DNA from: an uncultured Pelagibacteraceae bacterium
GTDB taxonomy: Bacteria > Pseudomonadota > Alphaproteobacteria > Pelagibacterales > Pelagibacteraceae
Length of the DNA stretch: 57,603 nucleotides
Assembly: GCA_902581775.1 (NCBI GenBank)
Contig: CACHPJ010000007.1
Span: forward strand, 1 to 57,603
Reading direction: 5' to 3'
The stretch's first letter is position 1; each line of letters opens with the position of its first letter. The notes beneath the pieces were generated by a model. It saw only the letters and a list, made by a program, of their open reading frames with translations, searched no databases and was not told the DNA's origin. Position numbers and translations under genes: made by a program. Positions 1 through 57,603 of the stretch are shown in pieces.

Positions 1-1074
1 TATAATCTAGCAAAAAAATTATATAAAAATACAGAAATAAATATATCGTTACTTACAGGTAAAACTCCATATTCAATTAGAAATAAGATTATTAAAGATT
101 TAGAATTAAAGAAAATTAATCTAATAATCGGTACACATTCTTTGTTTCAAAAAAAAATTAATTTTAAAAATTTAGGTTTAGTTGTTATCGATGAACAACA
201 TAAGTTTGGTGTTAAACAAAGAATATCTTTAACAGACAAGGGTACTTCTAACTGTGATCTATTGCTTATGTCTGCAACTCCAATTCCTAGAACTTTGATG
301 CTGGGTGTTTATGGAGATATGGATATATCAAAGTTAACTGAAAAGCCTAAAAATCGTGAAAAAATTCTCACTTATAGTAAGCCTGAAAATAAAATTGAAG
401 AAATATGGAAATTGGTAAAAAAAAAGATTGCTGAAAATAATCAAGTCTTTTGGGTCTGTCCATTAATAGATGAATCTAAAATATTCGATTATTCGTCTGC
501 AAAAAAAAGATTTGAGCAAATTAATAAAAAGTTTCCCAATAGAACAGCTTTATTACATGGAGCTATTGATAAAGACAAAAAAGAATTAATATTAGATGAT
601 TTTAAAAATAAAAAAATAGATATTTTAGTTTCAACTACCGTAATTGAAGTTGGCGTAGATTTTCCAAATGCAAATGTTATAATAATAGAAAATGCTAATA
701 AATTTGGATTAGCACAACTGCACCAATTAAGAGGAAGAGTAGGACGAGGTAATAAGCAAGGTATTTGTATACTTTTATACAAAGGACATCTCACTAAAAA
801 CGCAACCAAAAGAATTAAAATTTTAAAACAAACTGATGATGGATTTATAATATCTGAAGAAGATTTAAAATTAAGAGGATTTGGCGATTTATTAGGATAT
901 GACCAAAGTGGTTTGAAAAATTTTAAATTAGCAGATCCAGTGCATCATGCTGATTTGTTTGAAATTGCGAAGAAAAATATTGATTTTTTTGCAGAAAATA
1001 AACTTGATTTAGATAAGTATAATTTATTACTCAAAATTTTTGACAAAGCTGAAATTATAAATAACCGAGATTAA
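1..1074 (+). CDS. recG: ATP-dependent DNA helicase RecG, C-terminal part (5' end outside window)
   Basis: Frame 1 is open from the first base to the TAA at 1072-1074, so the gene enters from the left. RecG remodels stalled forks and branched DNA in the cytoplasm. Visible superfamily 2 motifs are the GTHSLF segment (about 130-147), the DEQH box at 190-201 (motif II), SATPIPR (motif III) near 271, a STTVIEVGVD segment (motif V) near 630, and QLRGRVGRG (motif VI) near 724. The Walker A motif and the wedge domain lie outside. The stop overlaps the stop of the converging hydratase gene by 4 nt. Family assignment is firm. Confidence 0.95.
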   Translation, partial: YNLAKKLYKNTEINISLLTGKTPYSIRNKIIKDLELKKINLIIGTHSLFQKKINFKNLGLVVIDEQHKFGVKQRISLTDKGTSNCDLLLMSATPIPRTLMLGVYGDMDISKLTEKPKNREKILTYSKPENKIEEIWKLVKKKIAENNQVFWVCPLIDESKIFDYSSAKKRFEQINKKFPNRTALLHGAIDKDKKELILDDFKNKKIDILVSTTVIEVGVDFPNANVIIIENANKFGLAQLHQLRGRVGRGNKQGICILLYKGHLTKNATKRIKILKQTDDGFIISEEDLKLRGFGDLLGYDQSGLKNFKLADPVHHADLFEIAKKNIDFFAENKLDLDKYNLLLKIFDKAEIINNRD

Positions 1075-1850
1075 ACGATTTTAGTTTTAACAGAACCAAT
1101 TCTATCAACTTTGCCTGTATAAAGACCTTTACCTTTTAAAGGGACAACACCTACAGTTGAACCTGTAAATATATAAAAGTTTGTATTTAATCTGACTTTA
1201 TCTTTTTTTAATTTTTTTAAAACAAATCTTAGTGAGTTAATAGGGTTCACATAAACAGTGTTTGTATTGCCATGCACTAAATATTTCAATTTTTTATTTG
1301 AAATATAGGTCTTTAAATTATATTTAATTCTTTTAAATTTCTTTTTTGGTCCAAGAATAAATTTTATATTTCCTCCAAAATCAGAGCATAAATCTCCTAA
1401 GGTTTTAATACCCTTCTTTCTTTGTCTATAACCCACTACTTCAATGCAAGGTGCCGTATACATAATAAATTTAATTATATTTTTATTTGTTGGTTGTTTT
1501 TTAAAATCAAAAAAATTTTTTTTGATTAGAAAGCAAACTTCAAGTTCAATACCCAGTGTGTAATTATTTATCTTAACTCTTTGATTATTTTTCAATAAAT
1601 TTGACTTATAAATAGCTGCATAAAAAGGCTCTTTTTCTTTTAACTTTTTTAATAACGGTATTGAAGTTCCACCTGCCTTAAAACCTATTATTGGTATTTT
1701 TATTTTGCTTTCACATAACCGTCTAAAATAATTTGCATTTTTTAGATTTTTTGTAAATCTTTTAGGAATTGGAGTGATAATTTTTTTTTTTAAAAAGGCT
1801 TCTACTAATTTATTTGCATAATGATTCATTTTATAATTCATATTTTTCAT
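1071..1850 (-). CDS. 2-keto-4-pentenoate hydratase / fumarylacetoacetase-fold family protein (MhpD-like)
   Basis: A 259-residue protein resembling MhpD and 4-oxalocrotonate decarboxylase, cytosolic metal-dependent enzymes acting on 2-hydroxy-dienoates. The metal-binding E-x-E pair is in GIELEV (E102, E104). The C-terminal half has the family layout: an A-P-x-I-E-V segment, a HGN segment and FTGSTVGVVPL. Its start ATG overlaps the stop of the aldehyde dehydrogenase gene (TAATG), so the two are probably translated as a pair. Starts at M1, M4 or M8 cannot be separated. The true substrate is unknown, and the sequence is divergent enough that a different carbonyl substrate is possible. Confidence 0.8.
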   Translation of the reverse strand: MKNMNYKMNHYANKLVEAFLKKKIITPIPKRFTKNLKNANYFRRLCESKIKIPIIGFKAGGTSIPLLKKLKEKEPFYAAIYKSNLLKNNQRVKINNYTLGIELEVCFLIKKNFFDFKKQPTNKNIIKFIMYTAPCIEVVGYRQRKKGIKTLGDLCSDFGGNIKFILGPKKKFKRIKYNLKTYISNKKLKYLVHGNTNTVYVNPINSLRFVLKKLKKDKVRLNTNFYIFTGSTVGVVPLKGKGLYTGKVDRIGSVKTKIV

Positions 1851-3295
1851 TAGTCCAAATGTATGCCAAAATGAGTATATTTAATATTTAAATAATCTTT
1901 TATCGCCATCGAACCACCTTCTCTACCATAACCAGTTTGTTTAATTCCTCCAAATGGAGCTTCGGGTAAAGCTACTACGCCTGTATTAACAGCTACCGTG
2001 CCTGTTTCCATTAACTCAGAAGCTTTATGCGCCCTTTTTAAATTATTTGTGTAAATATAACTTGCTAATCCTAAGTCATTATTATTTGCTCTTTCTATTA
2101 CTTCATCAAAGTTTTTAAAAGATAGAATGGGAACCAAGGGTCCAAAAGGCTCCTGGTTCATAATAGTAAAATCATCATTGATATTATCAAATACTGTGGG
2201 TTCATAAAAAAAACCTTTATTAAATCCAGCTGGTTTTTTTCCTCCACATAGAACATTGGCTCCCTCTTTCTTGGTTAATTCAACCAAAGATTCGACTTCG
2301 TCTAATCTTTTTTTAGTTGTTAATGGTCCTAAAATTGTATCTTTTTCAATTCCATTTCCTATCTTTAATTTTTTTGTTTTTTCTACCATCATATTAGTGA
2401 AATCTTTTTTTTTACTTTCATGAATATAAAATCTACTAGGAGAAATACAAACTTGTCCGTTATTTCTAAATTTTGCAAAAATAGCTATATCAGTTACTTT
2501 ATCTAAATCTACATCATCAAATACTATAAAAGGAGAGTGGCCACTTAGCTCCATTGTTACTCTTTGAACTTTTTCGGCTGCTTTTTTTAGAATAATTTTT
2601 CCAACTCTTGTTGATCCAGTTATTGAAACTTTTTTAATTATATCAGATGATAATAACTGATCTGAAATAAATGCTGGATCTCCCGAAAGTAAATTTACAA
2701 CACCCGGAGGGATGCCAGCCTCATTACAAATGTTTACCAATTCCATTACAGAACCTGGTGTAATAACATCAGGTTTTACTATAACAGAGCAACCTGCTGA
2801 TAAAGCGGTAGAAATTTTTCTTGCTGCTAAAGTTACTGGAAAATTCCATGGAACTAATGCTGCTACTACACCAACAGGTTGATAGTAAACATGTATTTTC
2901 GTGTCTGCGGCTCTACCTTGTAAAGTTTCACCATAAATTCTTTTAGCTTCTTCTCCACTCCATTCAAAGATATCTGCAGCGCCATTAGCTTCACCTTTTG
3001 CTTCAGCGATAGGCTTTCCAACCTCTAAGGTAAGCCATTTTGATAAAGAGTCATTTTTTTTTCTAATAAGATCTGAAATTTTTCTTATAATTTTTGACCT
3101 TTCCCAGGGTGGAGTATTTTTCCAAACTTCAAAACCTTTTTTGGCAGATTTAAGACATAGATCAATATCATTTTTATTTGCTTTTGATGCTCTACCAATC
3201 GTCTCCTCTGTCGCAGGATTAATTACTTCGTAAGTCTCACCACTTGATGAATTTTGCCACTTACCATTTATAAACTGACCAAATTTTTCGTACAT
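1850..3295 (-). CDS. NAD(P)-dependent aldehyde dehydrogenase (succinate-semialdehyde dehydrogenase-like)
   Basis: About 481 residues, the usual length for this family, which oxidises aldehydes to acids. The ATG at 3295 was chosen because the frame only extends upstream through a TTG at 3340 and homology starts with a GQFINGKW segment. Key residues are present: PWNFP at 149-153, the cofactor-side Lys in VIVKP (about 174), the general base Glu in MELSG (about 249) and the catalytic Cys in GQVCIS (about 283). The C-terminus carries the EAPFGGIKQTGYGREGG signature typical of the GabD branch. It lies 47 nt downstream of tRNA-Glu and overlaps the hydratase gene. Substrate is inferred only from overall resemblance. 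Confidence 0.85.
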   Translation of the reverse strand: MYEKFGQFINGKWQNSSSGETYEVINPATEETIGRASKANKNDIDLCLKSAKKGFEVWKNTPPWERSKIIRKISDLIRKKNDSLSKWLTLEVGKPIAEAKGEANGAADIFEWSGEEAKRIYGETLQGRAADTKIHVYYQPVGVVAALVPWNFPVTLAARKISTALSAGCSVIVKPDVITPGSVMELVNICNEAGIPPGVVNLLSGDPAFISDQLLSSDIIKKVSITGSTRVGKIILKKAAEKVQRVTMELSGHSPFIVFDDVDLDKVTDIAIFAKFRNNGQVCISPSRFYIHESKKKDFTNMMVEKTKKLKIGNGIEKDTILGPLTTKKRLDEVESLVELTKKEGANVLCGGKKPAGFNKGFFYEPTVFDNINDDFTIMNQEPFGPLVPILSFKNFDEVIERANNNDLGLASYIYTNNLKRAHKASELMETGTVAVNTGVVALPEAPFGGIKQTGYGREGGSMAIKDYLNIKYTHFGIHLD

Positions 3296-3342
3296 ATTTA
3301 ATTTATAATATAATTTATATTTAAAAGCGTTATTTTTCAATA

Positions 3343-3417
3343 TGGCGGTCCCAAGGGGAATCGAACCCCTCTTTCATGGATGAAAACCATGTGTCCTAAC
3401 CGATAGACGATGGGACC
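3343..3417 (-). tRNA. tRNA-Glu (anticodon TTC)
   Basis: The reverse complement folds as a standard cloverleaf. The acceptor stem is GGTCCCA/TGGGACC, the anticodon stem CATGG/CCATG has loop TTTTCAT giving anticodon TTC, the T arm contains GGTTCGATTCC, and the discriminator is G. CCA is encoded (3343-3345). The first 22 nt overlap the 3' end of recJ, whose TAG stop lies in the D-loop. It would be transcribed together with recJ and needs RNase P processing to be released. Confidence 0.97.
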
Positions 3418-5180
3418 TTATTTTTGACTGTCTTAATAACAGATATATCATCGATAATAAACTCTACATTTTCTTTTCCTTTCCAATTATTTAAACTCAA
3501 TTTACCTGCCATATGAAAGAAATCCTTATTATTATTGATTAAAAATTGTCCCATTTGATTATCAACACAATTAAAGCATATAGATGAGACTGAAGAGCCG
3601 TCTTTTGCAGATAAAATTGACTTTACGTGTTTTTCTCCTACAATTTTTGATTTTATCACTTTGAGGTTCTTAATAATGAATTTTGGTTCAGCATTACCAG
3701 ATCCAAAAGGAGCCAATTTTTGTATGTTTTCATAAAATTTAAGATTAATTGCTGAAGCAGAAATTTCAGTATCAATATAAGTTTTTTCCTTATCATATTT
3801 TTCTTTTTTGTACTTTTCAAATTTCTTAAAAAAAAAAAATTTAAGATCATTTAATTTATCTTTACTGACAGAAAAACCTCCAGCCATTTTATGGCCACCA
3901 CCTTTTATTAATAAATTATTATTGACTGCAGAGATTATTATTGATCCTATATCAAATCCTACTACAGATCTGGCCGATGCTTTACCGATACCGTCTTTAA
4001 AAGAAATTATTATTGTTGGTTTGTTAAATTTATCTTTAATTCTTGATGCTATTATACCTATTATTCCTTCATGCCAGTTTTCTCCACTAAGAATTAAAAC
4101 TGGTTCATCTTTTTCATCTGTACTCGAATTTAAGACTAAACTTAATAAATTTGCCTCTAATAACTTTCTCTCATTATTAAATTGTTCCAGTTCATTTGCA
4201 ATCTTGAATAATTGTTTGGGTTCAGAAGTCAAAAGTAGATTCGCCCCATGAGAAGATTTACCAACTCTACCGCCAGCATTAATTCTAGGTCCTATCATGT
4301 AGCCAAGATGATAAGTTGATAGGTTTGATTCAATATTGCACATATCAAATAATGTTTTAAGGCCAAGATTTTTTTTTAAATTTAGTACTTTTAAACCCTG
4401 TTTAACCAATGCACGATTTAGGCCAATCAATGGTACTACATCACAGATAGTACCCAAAGAAACTAGATCTAAAAAATTTAAAAGATTTGGTTCATTTATC
4501 TTATTCTTTTTAAACCATCCTTCTTCCCTCAATTTTTTATTAAGAGATATTAAAAACATAAAACAAACACCAACAGCGCTTAAATAATTTAAATTTGATT
4601 TATCATCAACTCTGTTTGGATTGATAATGGAATATGCATTGGGTAATTTTAATTCACTTTGATGGTGATCTAAAACTATTATATCTGTTTTAATTGAATT
4701 TGCATATTCTATAGGTTCAAAAGACATAGTTCCGCAATCAACAGTAAAAATTAATTTGACTTTCAAATCTATTAATTTTTTTAAACCTTTTATAGTTGGA
4801 CCATAACCTTCGGTTTTTCGATCGGGTATATATATTTCATATTTATGTTTTATTTCTTTAAAAAAGTTTCCTAATAGTGCAGTTGAACTTGCACCATCAA
4901 CATCATAATCTCCAAATATACCAATTGACTCACCATTTCTTATAGAATTAAAGGCTCTATCGGTAGCAGTATCCATATCTTTTAAAATATTTGGATTAGG
5001 AAGTATATTTTTCAAAGATGGATTAAGAAATAATTCCACCTCATTTTTAGGTATACCTCTTATTGATAATAATTTTGAAACTGTAGTATCTAAAAAAAAA
5101 TTCTCTTTAAAAAAGTTTATATCTTCATTATTAAATTTTCTAAGTACCCATTTCTTTCCTAATACAGAAGTTAGACTCAT
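3396..5180 (-). CDS. recJ: Single-stranded-DNA-specific 5'-3' exonuclease RecJ
   Basis: A 594-residue DHH-family nuclease of the RecF repair pathway. The N-terminal catalytic core shows DYDVDG (91-96), VDCG (148-151) and the DHH motif (171-173). GPRINAGGRVG (about 297-307) and GGGHKMAGGF (about 436) belong to the DHHA1 region, followed by the OB-like domain. The start codon overlaps the glpX stop by 4 nt. Oddity: the last seven codons and the TAG stop run into the tRNA-Glu gene, the stop being supplied by the tRNA D-loop sequence GGTTAG. RecG (left edge) and RecO (24 kb) in this window act in the same repair network. Confidence 0.96.
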   Translation of the reverse strand: MSLTSVLGKKWVLRKFNNEDINFFKENFFLDTTVSKLLSIRGIPKNEVELFLNPSLKNILPNPNILKDMDTATDRAFNSIRNGESIGIFGDYDVDGASSTALLGNFFKEIKHKYEIYIPDRKTEGYGPTIKGLKKLIDLKVKLIFTVDCGTMSFEPIEYANSIKTDIIVLDHHQSELKLPNAYSIINPNRVDDKSNLNYLSAVGVCFMFLISLNKKLREEGWFKKNKINEPNLLNFLDLVSLGTICDVVPLIGLNRALVKQGLKVLNLKKNLGLKTLFDMCNIESNLSTYHLGYMIGPRINAGGRVGKSSHGANLLLTSEPKQLFKIANELEQFNNERKLLEANLLSLVLNSSTDEKDEPVLILSGENWHEGIIGIIASRIKDKFNKPTIIISFKDGIGKASARSVVGFDIGSIIISAVNNNLLIKGGGHKMAGGFSVSKDKLNDLKFFFFKKFEKYKKEKYDKEKTYIDTEISASAINLKFYENIQKLAPFGSGNAEPKFIIKNLKVIKSKIVGEKHVKSILSAKDGSSVSSICFNCVDNQMGQFLINNNKDFFHMAGKLSLNNWKGKENVEFIIDDISVIKTVKNKVPSSIG

Positions 5181-54450: not shown

Positions 54451-55251
54451 ATGAAAATATTTAAAAGTAAACATAAATTACAAAAAGCCCTCTCAAATCA
54501 AAAAAGTTTATCTTTTGTACCAACTATGGGCGGTCTTCATAAAGGTCATATATCTTTGATTAAAAAATCTAAAAAATTTAAAGAAAAGGTAATTGTTTCA
54601 ATCTTTATAAATCCTAAACAATTTAATAAAAAAAAAGATTTTACTAATTATCCAAGAAATTTAAAAAAAGATTTATCAGTCTTAAAGAAATTGAGAGTAA
54701 ATATTGTGTTTATCCCTAATAAAAAAGATATATTCTCTTTTCGTCCAAAAAGTAGCGTATATCTTAATAGTTTTTCAAAAAAACTTTGCGGTCAATTTAG
54801 AAAAGGCCATTTTGAAGGTGTTTTAAATGTTGTAAATAGATTTTTAGAAATAATTAAACCAAAAAGAATATTCTTAGGAAATAAAGATTTTCAACAATTA
54901 GTTTTGATTAAAAAACATATTTTAAAAAAAAAGATTAATACTAAAATTGTTTCATGTAAAACTGTTAGAGAAAGAAATGGTATTGCTTATTCGACTAGAA
55001 ATAGTCTTTTAAGTATAAATGAAATAAAAATAGCTTCTAAAATTTATAGGATTTTGTCAAAAGAGAAAAAAAAATTATCAATAAATTTAAAAAAAGTTAA
55101 AGAAAAGATTATTAATGCTGGGGGTAAGAATATTGATTACCTTGAAATTTATAACATAAATACTCTTAAAAAATCAAATAAGTTAAATAAAAATACTAAA
55201 TTATTTATTGCTTATTATCTAAATAATGTTCGATTAATAGATAATCTCTAA
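54451..55251 (+). CDS. panC: Pantothenate synthetase
   Basis: A 266-residue enzyme ligating pantoate and beta-alanine with ATP. FVPTMGGLHKGHISLIKKS contains the HIGH-like HKGH (30-33), FINPKQFNKKKDFTNYPR follows, and the second signature is FLGNKDFQQLVLIKK. RERNGIAYSTRNSLLS near the middle is conserved. Alone on the plus strand, its end overlaps the mgtE end by 4 nt. panB is not in the window. Confidence 0.94.
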   Translation: MKIFKSKHKLQKALSNQKSLSFVPTMGGLHKGHISLIKKSKKFKEKVIVSIFINPKQFNKKKDFTNYPRNLKKDLSVLKKLRVNIVFIPNKKDIFSFRPKSSVYLNSFSKKLCGQFRKGHFEGVLNVVNRFLEIIKPKRIFLGNKDFQQLVLIKKHILKKKINTKIVSCKTVRERNGIAYSTRNSLLSINEIKIASKIYRILSKEKKKLSINLKKVKEKIINAGGKNIDYLEIYNINTLKKSNKLNKNTKLFIAYYLNNVRLIDNL

Positions 55252-56627
55252 TTTAAAAAGTAATAAGATCCAAGGCCTAAAAAAGACAAAAAGCCTATTA
55301 CATCTGTAATTGTAGTTACAAAAACACTGGATGCTAAAGCTGGATCAATATTAAGTTTTTTTAATGATACTGGAACTAAGATTCCAAATAAACCAGCAAC
55401 AATCATATTCAGTATCATTGATATACCAATTAAAATTGCTAGAGATATCTCATTAAACCATAATTGAACTATTACCGCGGTTATAACAGCAAATATAATT
55501 CCATTTAAAATTCCGATTAGAAATTCTTTACCCACAATTCTATTAAAATTACTTGTTGAAAGTTCTTTTTTTGCTATTGCTCTAATTGTAACAGCTAATG
55601 TTTGCATGCCAGCATTTCCACCCATTGAAGCTACTATTGGCATTAAAAAAGCTAAAGCCACCATTTGTTCTATGGAAGCACCAAATTTACTAATTACCCA
55701 TGTAGCTAATAATGCGGTTATTAAATTTAATAAAAGCCAATTAAATCTTCTTTTTGTCTTAACTAAAACACTGTCAGTAATCTCCTCTTCTCCTACACCG
55801 GCCAATCTTAAAACATCTTCTTCTGCCTCCTCTTGAACAACTGTTACGACATCATCAGCTGTTATCATGCCGACTAATTTATTATTTTTATTTACTACAC
55901 CAGCGGAGACTAAATTATAGTTTTCAAAAGTAAGACCTACTTCTTCTTTATCCATGTTAACTGAAATTAAAACCGGCATCTCTCTCATTATAGAATTCAT
56001 TTTACTTTCTCTAGATGTTCTTAAAACTCTTGAAGAGGGCACTGTACCAATTGGTTTAAAGTCATTATCAACAATAAAAATTTCTAAAAATTCATCTGGT
56101 AATTCCTTATTTTCTCTAAGATAATCAATTGTTTGTCCAACGGACCAATTACTTGGAACAGCAGTAAACTCTCTCTGCATAATCCTTGCAGCAGAGTCTT
56201 CGGGATAACTTAGACCTTCTTCTAATAAGAATCTGTCTTTTGGTGGTAAATTATCTAATACGAGTCCCTTTTTTTCCTTTTCTAAATTCTCTAATATTTT
56301 AATTGAGTTGTCTGACTCTAATCTTTTTAAAATTTTTGCTATTGCCTCTGGTGAAAGTAATTGTAAAACATTCTTTTGAATAGACTCATTTATTTCAATG
56401 AATATATCTGGATCAATATTAAAATCCTCAATTTCGATTAATTTTGCTCTAATTTCATCAGATAAGTTCTCTATTAAGTTAGCTACATCAGAAGGGTGTA
56501 GATCCTTTAGTGTCTGATTTATAAAAGTTATGTCTCTCGCTTTGATTTTATCCGTAAAAATATTTATAAATTCTTTATTAAAGTCAAAATTAACTTTTTT
56601 AGAACCTATGGATTTAACTAAACTCAT
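55248..56627 (-). CDS. mgtE: Magnesium transporter MgtE
   Basis: A 459-residue Mg2+ channel. The N-terminal helical domain (about 1-130) shows LHPSDVANLIENL; two CBS domains follow (about 135-255, beginning MQREFTAVPSNWSVGQTI). The C-terminal membrane domain has about five helices with MPIVASMGGNAGMQTLAV and GILVPVSLKKLNIDPALASS (pore-lining). Length is typical. It is divergent from the chimeric LipB/RluC frame across 63 nt. Confidence 0.95.
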   Translation of the reverse strand: MSLVKSIGSKKVNFDFNKEFINIFTDKIKARDITFINQTLKDLHPSDVANLIENLSDEIRAKLIEIEDFNIDPDIFIEINESIQKNVLQLLSPEAIAKILKRLESDNSIKILENLEKEKKGLVLDNLPPKDRFLLEEGLSYPEDSAARIMQREFTAVPSNWSVGQTIDYLRENKELPDEFLEIFIVDNDFKPIGTVPSSRVLRTSRESKMNSIMREMPVLISVNMDKEEVGLTFENYNLVSAGVVNKNNKLVGMITADDVVTVVQEEAEEDVLRLAGVGEEEITDSVLVKTKRRFNWLLLNLITALLATWVISKFGASIEQMVALAFLMPIVASMGGNAGMQTLAVTIRAIAKKELSTSNFNRIVGKEFLIGILNGIIFAVITAVIVQLWFNEISLAILIGISMILNMIVAGLFGILVPVSLKKLNIDPALASSVFVTTITDVIGFLSFLGLGSYYFLN

Positions 56628-56690: not shown

Positions 56691-57603
56691 ATGACCATTG
56701 AAGTAATAATAGAAAAGAAACCAGTTCCATACAAAAAAGCCATGAAATATCTGGAAAAGAGAGTCGAAATGCTGAAAAATGGTAAAAATAAGGAATTAAT
56801 TTGGATTTTAGAGCATCCCGTAACTTATACAGCTGGAGTAACCTTTGACAAAAAAGACATTTTAGAAAAAATTAATCTAATAAAAACTAATAGAGGTGGA
56901 AAGATAACAGTCCATAGCCCTGGACAAAAAATAATTTATTTTGCTTTAAATTTAAATTCCAGAAAAAAAGATATAAGAAATCTAATTAGAAAAGTTGAAA
57001 AATCCATCATCACGTTTTTAAATATTTACAATGTTAAAGGTTTTGCCGATAAAAAAAATATTGGTATTTGGGTAAAAGGAAAAAAAACTAAATCCTCATA
57101 TAGAATTAAAAAGGGAGATCTTATTGAATTCGCAAATATTAAGCAAATACAAGTAAAAAAAAACGAAAATAAAAAAATTTTATATAAATCAACAAATAAA
57201 GAAAAAAAAAGTTATGATAATTTTATAATAGAAGATAATGAAAATTTTTTAGTTATTAATAAACCAGCTGGAATTGCGGTACAATCAGGAACAAAATCAT
57301 TTAAAAATATAATTGATATATTAAAAGATACAAAATATTTCCTTAATTCAAAACCATATATAGTACATCGAATCGACAAAGAAACATCAGGTGTACTAAT
57401 AATTGCAAAAAACAGAAAATATGCACAACTTTTTACCTCTTTATTTAGAATTAGAAAAATTCACAAAACTTATTTAGCAATAGTTTACGGAAGATTGTCT
57501 GAAAAAATTAAGAAATTAGAAAATGATTTGATAACTTATGATAATAAGAAAAAAAATATTCAAAAAGCAATAACAAATATAAAGATTATAAAATCAAATG
57601 ATA
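56691..57603 (+). CDS. In-frame chimera: LipB N-terminal part joined to RluC-type pseudouridine synthase (3' end outside window)
   Basis: A single open frame from ATG 56691 to the window end (304 codons). Residues 1-131 are octanoyltransferase LipB: LIWILEHPVTYTAG, NRGGKITVHSPGQKIIYFAL and GIWVKGKK. From about residue 129 the sequence is RluC-like: the end of an S4 RNA-binding domain (KKTKSSYRIKKGDLIEF), then LVINKPAGIAVQSG and the catalytic HRIDKETSGVL (Asp about 229). LipB lacks its C-terminal third with the catalytic Lys and Cys; RluC lacks about the first 50 residues of its S4 part. The join falls at a GKK shared by both families (about 57075-57088). It may be a microhomology deletion or an assembly error. 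Confidence 0.85.
   Translation, partial: MTIEVIIEKKPVPYKKAMKYLEKRVEMLKNGKNKELIWILEHPVTYTAGVTFDKKDILEKINLIKTNRGGKITVHSPGQKIIYFALNLNSRKKDIRNLIRKVEKSIITFLNIYNVKGFADKKNIGIWVKGKKTKSSYRIKKGDLIEFANIKQIQVKKNENKKILYKSTNKEKKSYDNFIIEDNENFLVINKPAGIAVQSGTKSFKNIIDILKDTKYFLNSKPYIVHRIDKETSGVLIIAKNRKYAQLFTSLFRIRKIHKTYLAIVYGRLSEKIKKLENDLITYDNKKKNIQKAITNIKIIKSND

Follow-up and report, generated by a model that had tools for sequence, protein, structure and literature searches.

The window, 57,603 nucleotides in length, is the whole of contig C7 from an uncultured Pelagibacteraceae assembly of 890,410 bases in 32 contigs (76.7% complete). A stop-free frame of 304 amino acids (56691–57602, forward strand), still open at the right end of the contig, leads from the N-terminal half of the octanoyltransferase LipB into the catalytic part of the pseudouridine synthase RluC (Table 1). 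The earlier note had described a single LipB-to-RluC frame, and this was borne out by 304 uninterrupted codons and by Pfam domains of both parents.

Table 1. Features at and beside the LipB–RluC frame of contig C7
Feature	Position	Strand	Basis
Intact mgtE-type gene flanking the join on the left, collinear with relatives	55248..56627	-	name taken from the earlier note
lipB, 5' part (octanoyltransferase), ~codons 1–132	56691..57086	+	domain and tblastn alignments
Putative chimeric join, plausible A-rich short homology, exact base ambiguous	57066..57095	+	region shared by the LipB and RluC alignments
rluC, internal part, ~codons 46–219 of 298 (closest relative's numbering), to the contig end	57081..57603	+	alignments

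The LipB half was matched by the Pfam family LplA-B_cat over frame residues 14–132 (58.1 bits, model positions 2–125 of 200), so the frame does not contain the whole catalytic domain of a LipB, a protein whose gene is ~203 codons long in most relatives. The top LipB model of NCBIfam covers residues 2–136, and this stretch resembles the N-terminal part of LipB (NF010921, TIGR00214). In contrast to those proteins, the frame lacks the C-terminal part, including the PCG motif that is present in 87 of 89 LipB alignments from relatives; we take this missing part to be the holder of the catalytic lysine and cysteine. From about residue 126–132 onward the frame matches the RluC/RluA family of pseudouridine synthases (TIGR00005, NF008249), with TIGR00005 starting at 132 and the RluC models at 126, and it contains the catalytic domain expected of an RluC, PseudoU_synth_2 (residues 185–302, 83.5 bits, model positions 1–125 of 152, truncated where the contig ends). 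Unlike a complete RluC gene, the contig is missing the first ~40 codons and the last ~80. No S4 family match was found in the frame with Pfam, and the RluC alignment begins at RluC residue 40–41. The Pfam and RluC alignment borders thus uphold the earlier description, in which the C-terminal part of LipB and the S4 N terminus are lost. None of the 12 NCBIfam models listed for the frame reached its cut-off, the scores being 73.5 against 83.55 for TIGR00214 and 135.6 against 230 for NF010921.

A functional fused LipB–RluC enzyme under selection would account for the open frame. However, joining two coding frames preserves the frame in one case out of three, so a frame that stays open over the join is weak evidence when taken alone. 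Such an enzyme would also have to work without the LipB part that presumably carries the catalytic residues and without most of the S4 domain, and it is absent from all 108 related loci described below. This reading was given next to no probability.

The join lies ~0.5 kb from the right end of contig C7. When the closest relative's proteins were aligned by tblastn, LipB similarity stopped at 57095 and RluC similarity started at 57066; the overlap agrees with the switch position proposed in the earlier note, while a looser alignment continues to 57164. The letters around the join are GTAAAAGGAAAAAAAACT. Motifs of both parents lie near this site, VKGKK in the LipB of some relatives and NGKKTKSS in the RluC of the closest relative, and the A-run fits both parents as judged from relatives' genes rather than from the species' own intact copies. 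It is plausible that the join letters represent an A-rich short homology, of a length that the relatives do not fix.

The arrangement of lipB and rluC was compared across 109 related loci (L003–L111), in which some genomes occur twice and 80 of which, the best 80 of 157 candidates, carry names. Both genes were present in 108 of the 109, and in every one of these 108 loci (89 distinct pairs) they were neighbours on opposite strands. The window alone has them on the same strand, and its rluC part is inverted relative to all 108. The alignment 3' ends of the two genes were 2–337 bases apart in the related loci, and the sites that are joined in the window lay 960–991 bp apart (median 979; n = 87 of 89 pairs). 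The set includes five MAG-named records from other projects and strain HIMB058, which we take to be a cultured strain. The closest relative's stretch (G007) corresponds to the record AG-430-G14 (L032), with 100% identity over both proteins; its lipB (202 amino acids) and rluC (298 amino acids) stand on opposite strands with stops that overlap by four bases, and the genes next after the pair are, from their sequences, presumably rplQ and rpoA. The full lipB and full rluC that the earlier note had proposed to look for in close relatives therefore exist, for example in L003.

Three loci showed irregularities of their own. The 109th, L107 (AG-439-M21; lipB 70% identical to that of the window), is cut by its own contig end, which falls inside lipB near codon 173. 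In L014 (G022) lipB is apparently broken by one in-frame TAG, and in L070 the LipB match spans just 93 residues, so that the gene again appears broken; sequencing error or real decay could explain either case.

Because the parental genes are convergent in relatives, a same-strand join requires an inversion over ~0.98 kb. The earlier note had ascribed the frame to a short-homology deletion joining two tandem genes, and the GKK common to both genes at the join would suit such an event. However, a deletion alone cannot place genes from opposite strands in one frame, and with a same-orientation pair in none of 108 related loci it becomes viable only if the lineage had first inverted rluC. The convergent order makes this an inversion-type join, and a deletion was considered to have a negligible chance of being correct.

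Sixty of the 61 genomes searched (the source genome included) had some match, in some cases only a paralogue among the matches listed, and none of these listed matches except the window spans both parts in one piece. In the other family the listed matches place the two parts several kb apart on one contig or on separate contigs, which suggests that tight lipB–rluC linkage belongs to the window's family. At a threshold of 1e-60, 100 of 169 genus genomes (again with the source genome included) were matched, only the window over residues 1–304; the 69 genomes without a match at this threshold are uninformative. A candidate second fusion in G108 (match over 52–304, with two stops) was rejected as an ordinary convergent pair.

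The position of the join within the assembly was then considered against the relative G021. The left flank is collinear with G021 as far as lipB, and the terminal 0.5 kb then changes strand. Contig C12 picks up the G021 order and orientation again ~7 kb beyond, at a point inside rplF. C12 (L124) thus appears to follow the window on its right, with a gap of ~7 kb between them. In G021 the corresponding stretch presumably holds rplQ, rpoA, rpsK, rpsM, adk, secY, rplO, rpsE and rplR. RpoA was not found in the assembly by protein or family search, and all three relatives included in the comparison have it; SecY and S11 were likewise not found in the assembly, each family being present in 13 of 14 control genomes. 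Living cells possess RpoA, SecY and S11, and because none of the three was found here, C7 is concluded to end at an assembly gap into which the inverted rluC piece projects as a spur. The assembly gave no second match for the remainder of lipB or for either of the missing ends of rluC, 5' or 3', and nine proteins of the AG-430-G14 locus had no tblastn hit in its 11 smallest contigs.

Other contig ends were surveyed by comparing both ends of each of the 21 largest contigs (C1–C21; 42 ends) with 549,332 bases (~54%) of G021. Fifteen ends, each with several strong hits, were judged mappable by eye (C1 right, C3 right, C4 both, C6 both, C7 right, C11 both, C12 both, C13 right, C14 right and C20 both), and a strand flip was seen in C7 right only. 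No good G021 match was obtained for the terminal 1.5 kb at C6 right or the terminal 0.7 kb at C13 right. A further 26 ends were not judgeable, and the C7 left end was excluded from the count. This left end (window 1–5000) hits several distant G021 places with a strand change; a shuffled gene order, the reading adopted here, or else a second join could explain this. With a flip in just 1 of 15 judged ends, such joins do not pervade the assembly, and the survey neither proves nor rules out an amplification origin.

A real inversion of ~1 kb between short homologies, in the cell or its lineage, would have fused lipB to rluC and broken both genes. The geometry fits a simple inversion at short homologies in inverted orientation, a genuine local rearrangement of this kind with the same breakpoints would give an identical join and an identical outer order, and the rarity of flips among the judged ends indicates that joins of this kind are not widespread in the assembly. 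On the other hand, the orientation seen here recurs in none of the 108 related loci, no other genus genome that matched carries the whole frame, the reciprocal join (the lipB 3' part beside the rluC 5' end) was not found in the assembly, and the join is located next to a gap, where the contig ends. A real inversion would, moreover, have destroyed the sole LipB found. The assembly yielded a single LplA/LipB-type domain, and the second lipB or LplA for which the earlier note had suggested a search was not found there; LipA and four biotin/lipoyl-type domains are present, and from this gene content the cell probably needs LipB. A real inversion is therefore very unlikely. No more credible is its consequence for a streamlined SAR11-type cell, in which the only lipB and rluC would be broken, the fused frame retained and lipoate drawn from outside.

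Taken together, these observations argue that the LipB–RluC frame is almost certainly an artefact, an inverted chimera at a contig end, and not a gene fusion. The earlier note, which had rightly named misassembly as the main alternative, is therefore supported in part. Lasken and Stockwell 2007 (PMC1855051) report that 406 of 475 chimeras from an E. coli single-cell MDA reaction were inverted, that inverted partners lay mostly within 10 kb, and that 93.5% of the inverted joins spanning less than 10 kb had short complementarity. According to the same study, the commonest chimera of phi29 multiple displacement amplification is inverted, with short homology and closely spaced sites. The join described here is likewise inverted, as judged from relatives (108 of 108 opposite) and not from the species' own genome, with sites less than 10 kb apart in the 87 relatives' pairs; the intervening segment is skipped, as in those chimeras, and an A-rich short homology is plausible. 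It differs from those chimeras in being seen at an assembled contig end and not in reads, so that its in vitro origin is a deduction. The locus combines an inverted geometry, a short distance, a contig-end position and an adjacent gap of ~7 kb.

The source genome is presumably a single-cell genome. Single-cell pipelines discard contigs under 2,000 bases, as stated in two reports (PMC5519541, PMC10224968). The smallest contig of this assembly, at 2,038 bases, is consistent with such a cut. A cut at 2,000 bases is not unique to single cells. Among the 80 named loci (the best 80 of 157), 70 have AG-/AH- names and 4 have SAG-MED or SCGC names, all of which we take to denote single-cell genomes, although 16 of the 70 AG-/AH- records bear titles starting 'MAG:', which counts against this reading of the names.

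One interpretation of these data, and in our judgement very probably the correct one, is that the inverted chimera arose when the whole genome of a single cell was amplified with a phi29-type polymerase. In this scheme a 3' end that had been copied on lipB and then displaced would have re-annealed, via an A-rich short homology, to a displaced strand of the convergent rluC ~0.98 kb away, and would then have been extended back through rluC. The assembler may have kept the product because it bordered on a stretch of low coverage. The true chromosome would carry lipB and a convergent rluC, followed by rplQ, rpoA, rpsK, rpsM, adk, secY and rplO, as in relatives. A library or assembler misjoin would produce the same geometry and is unlikely.

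The annotation of this organism should treat lipB and rluC alike as genes interrupted at a contig end, and not as fused or lost. For incomplete genomes more generally, a fusion whose parents are convergent in relatives and whose join lies within ~1 kb of a contig end should be suspected of being an inverted amplification chimera. Cataloguing such frames at face value would lead to false fusion proteins and false gene losses.
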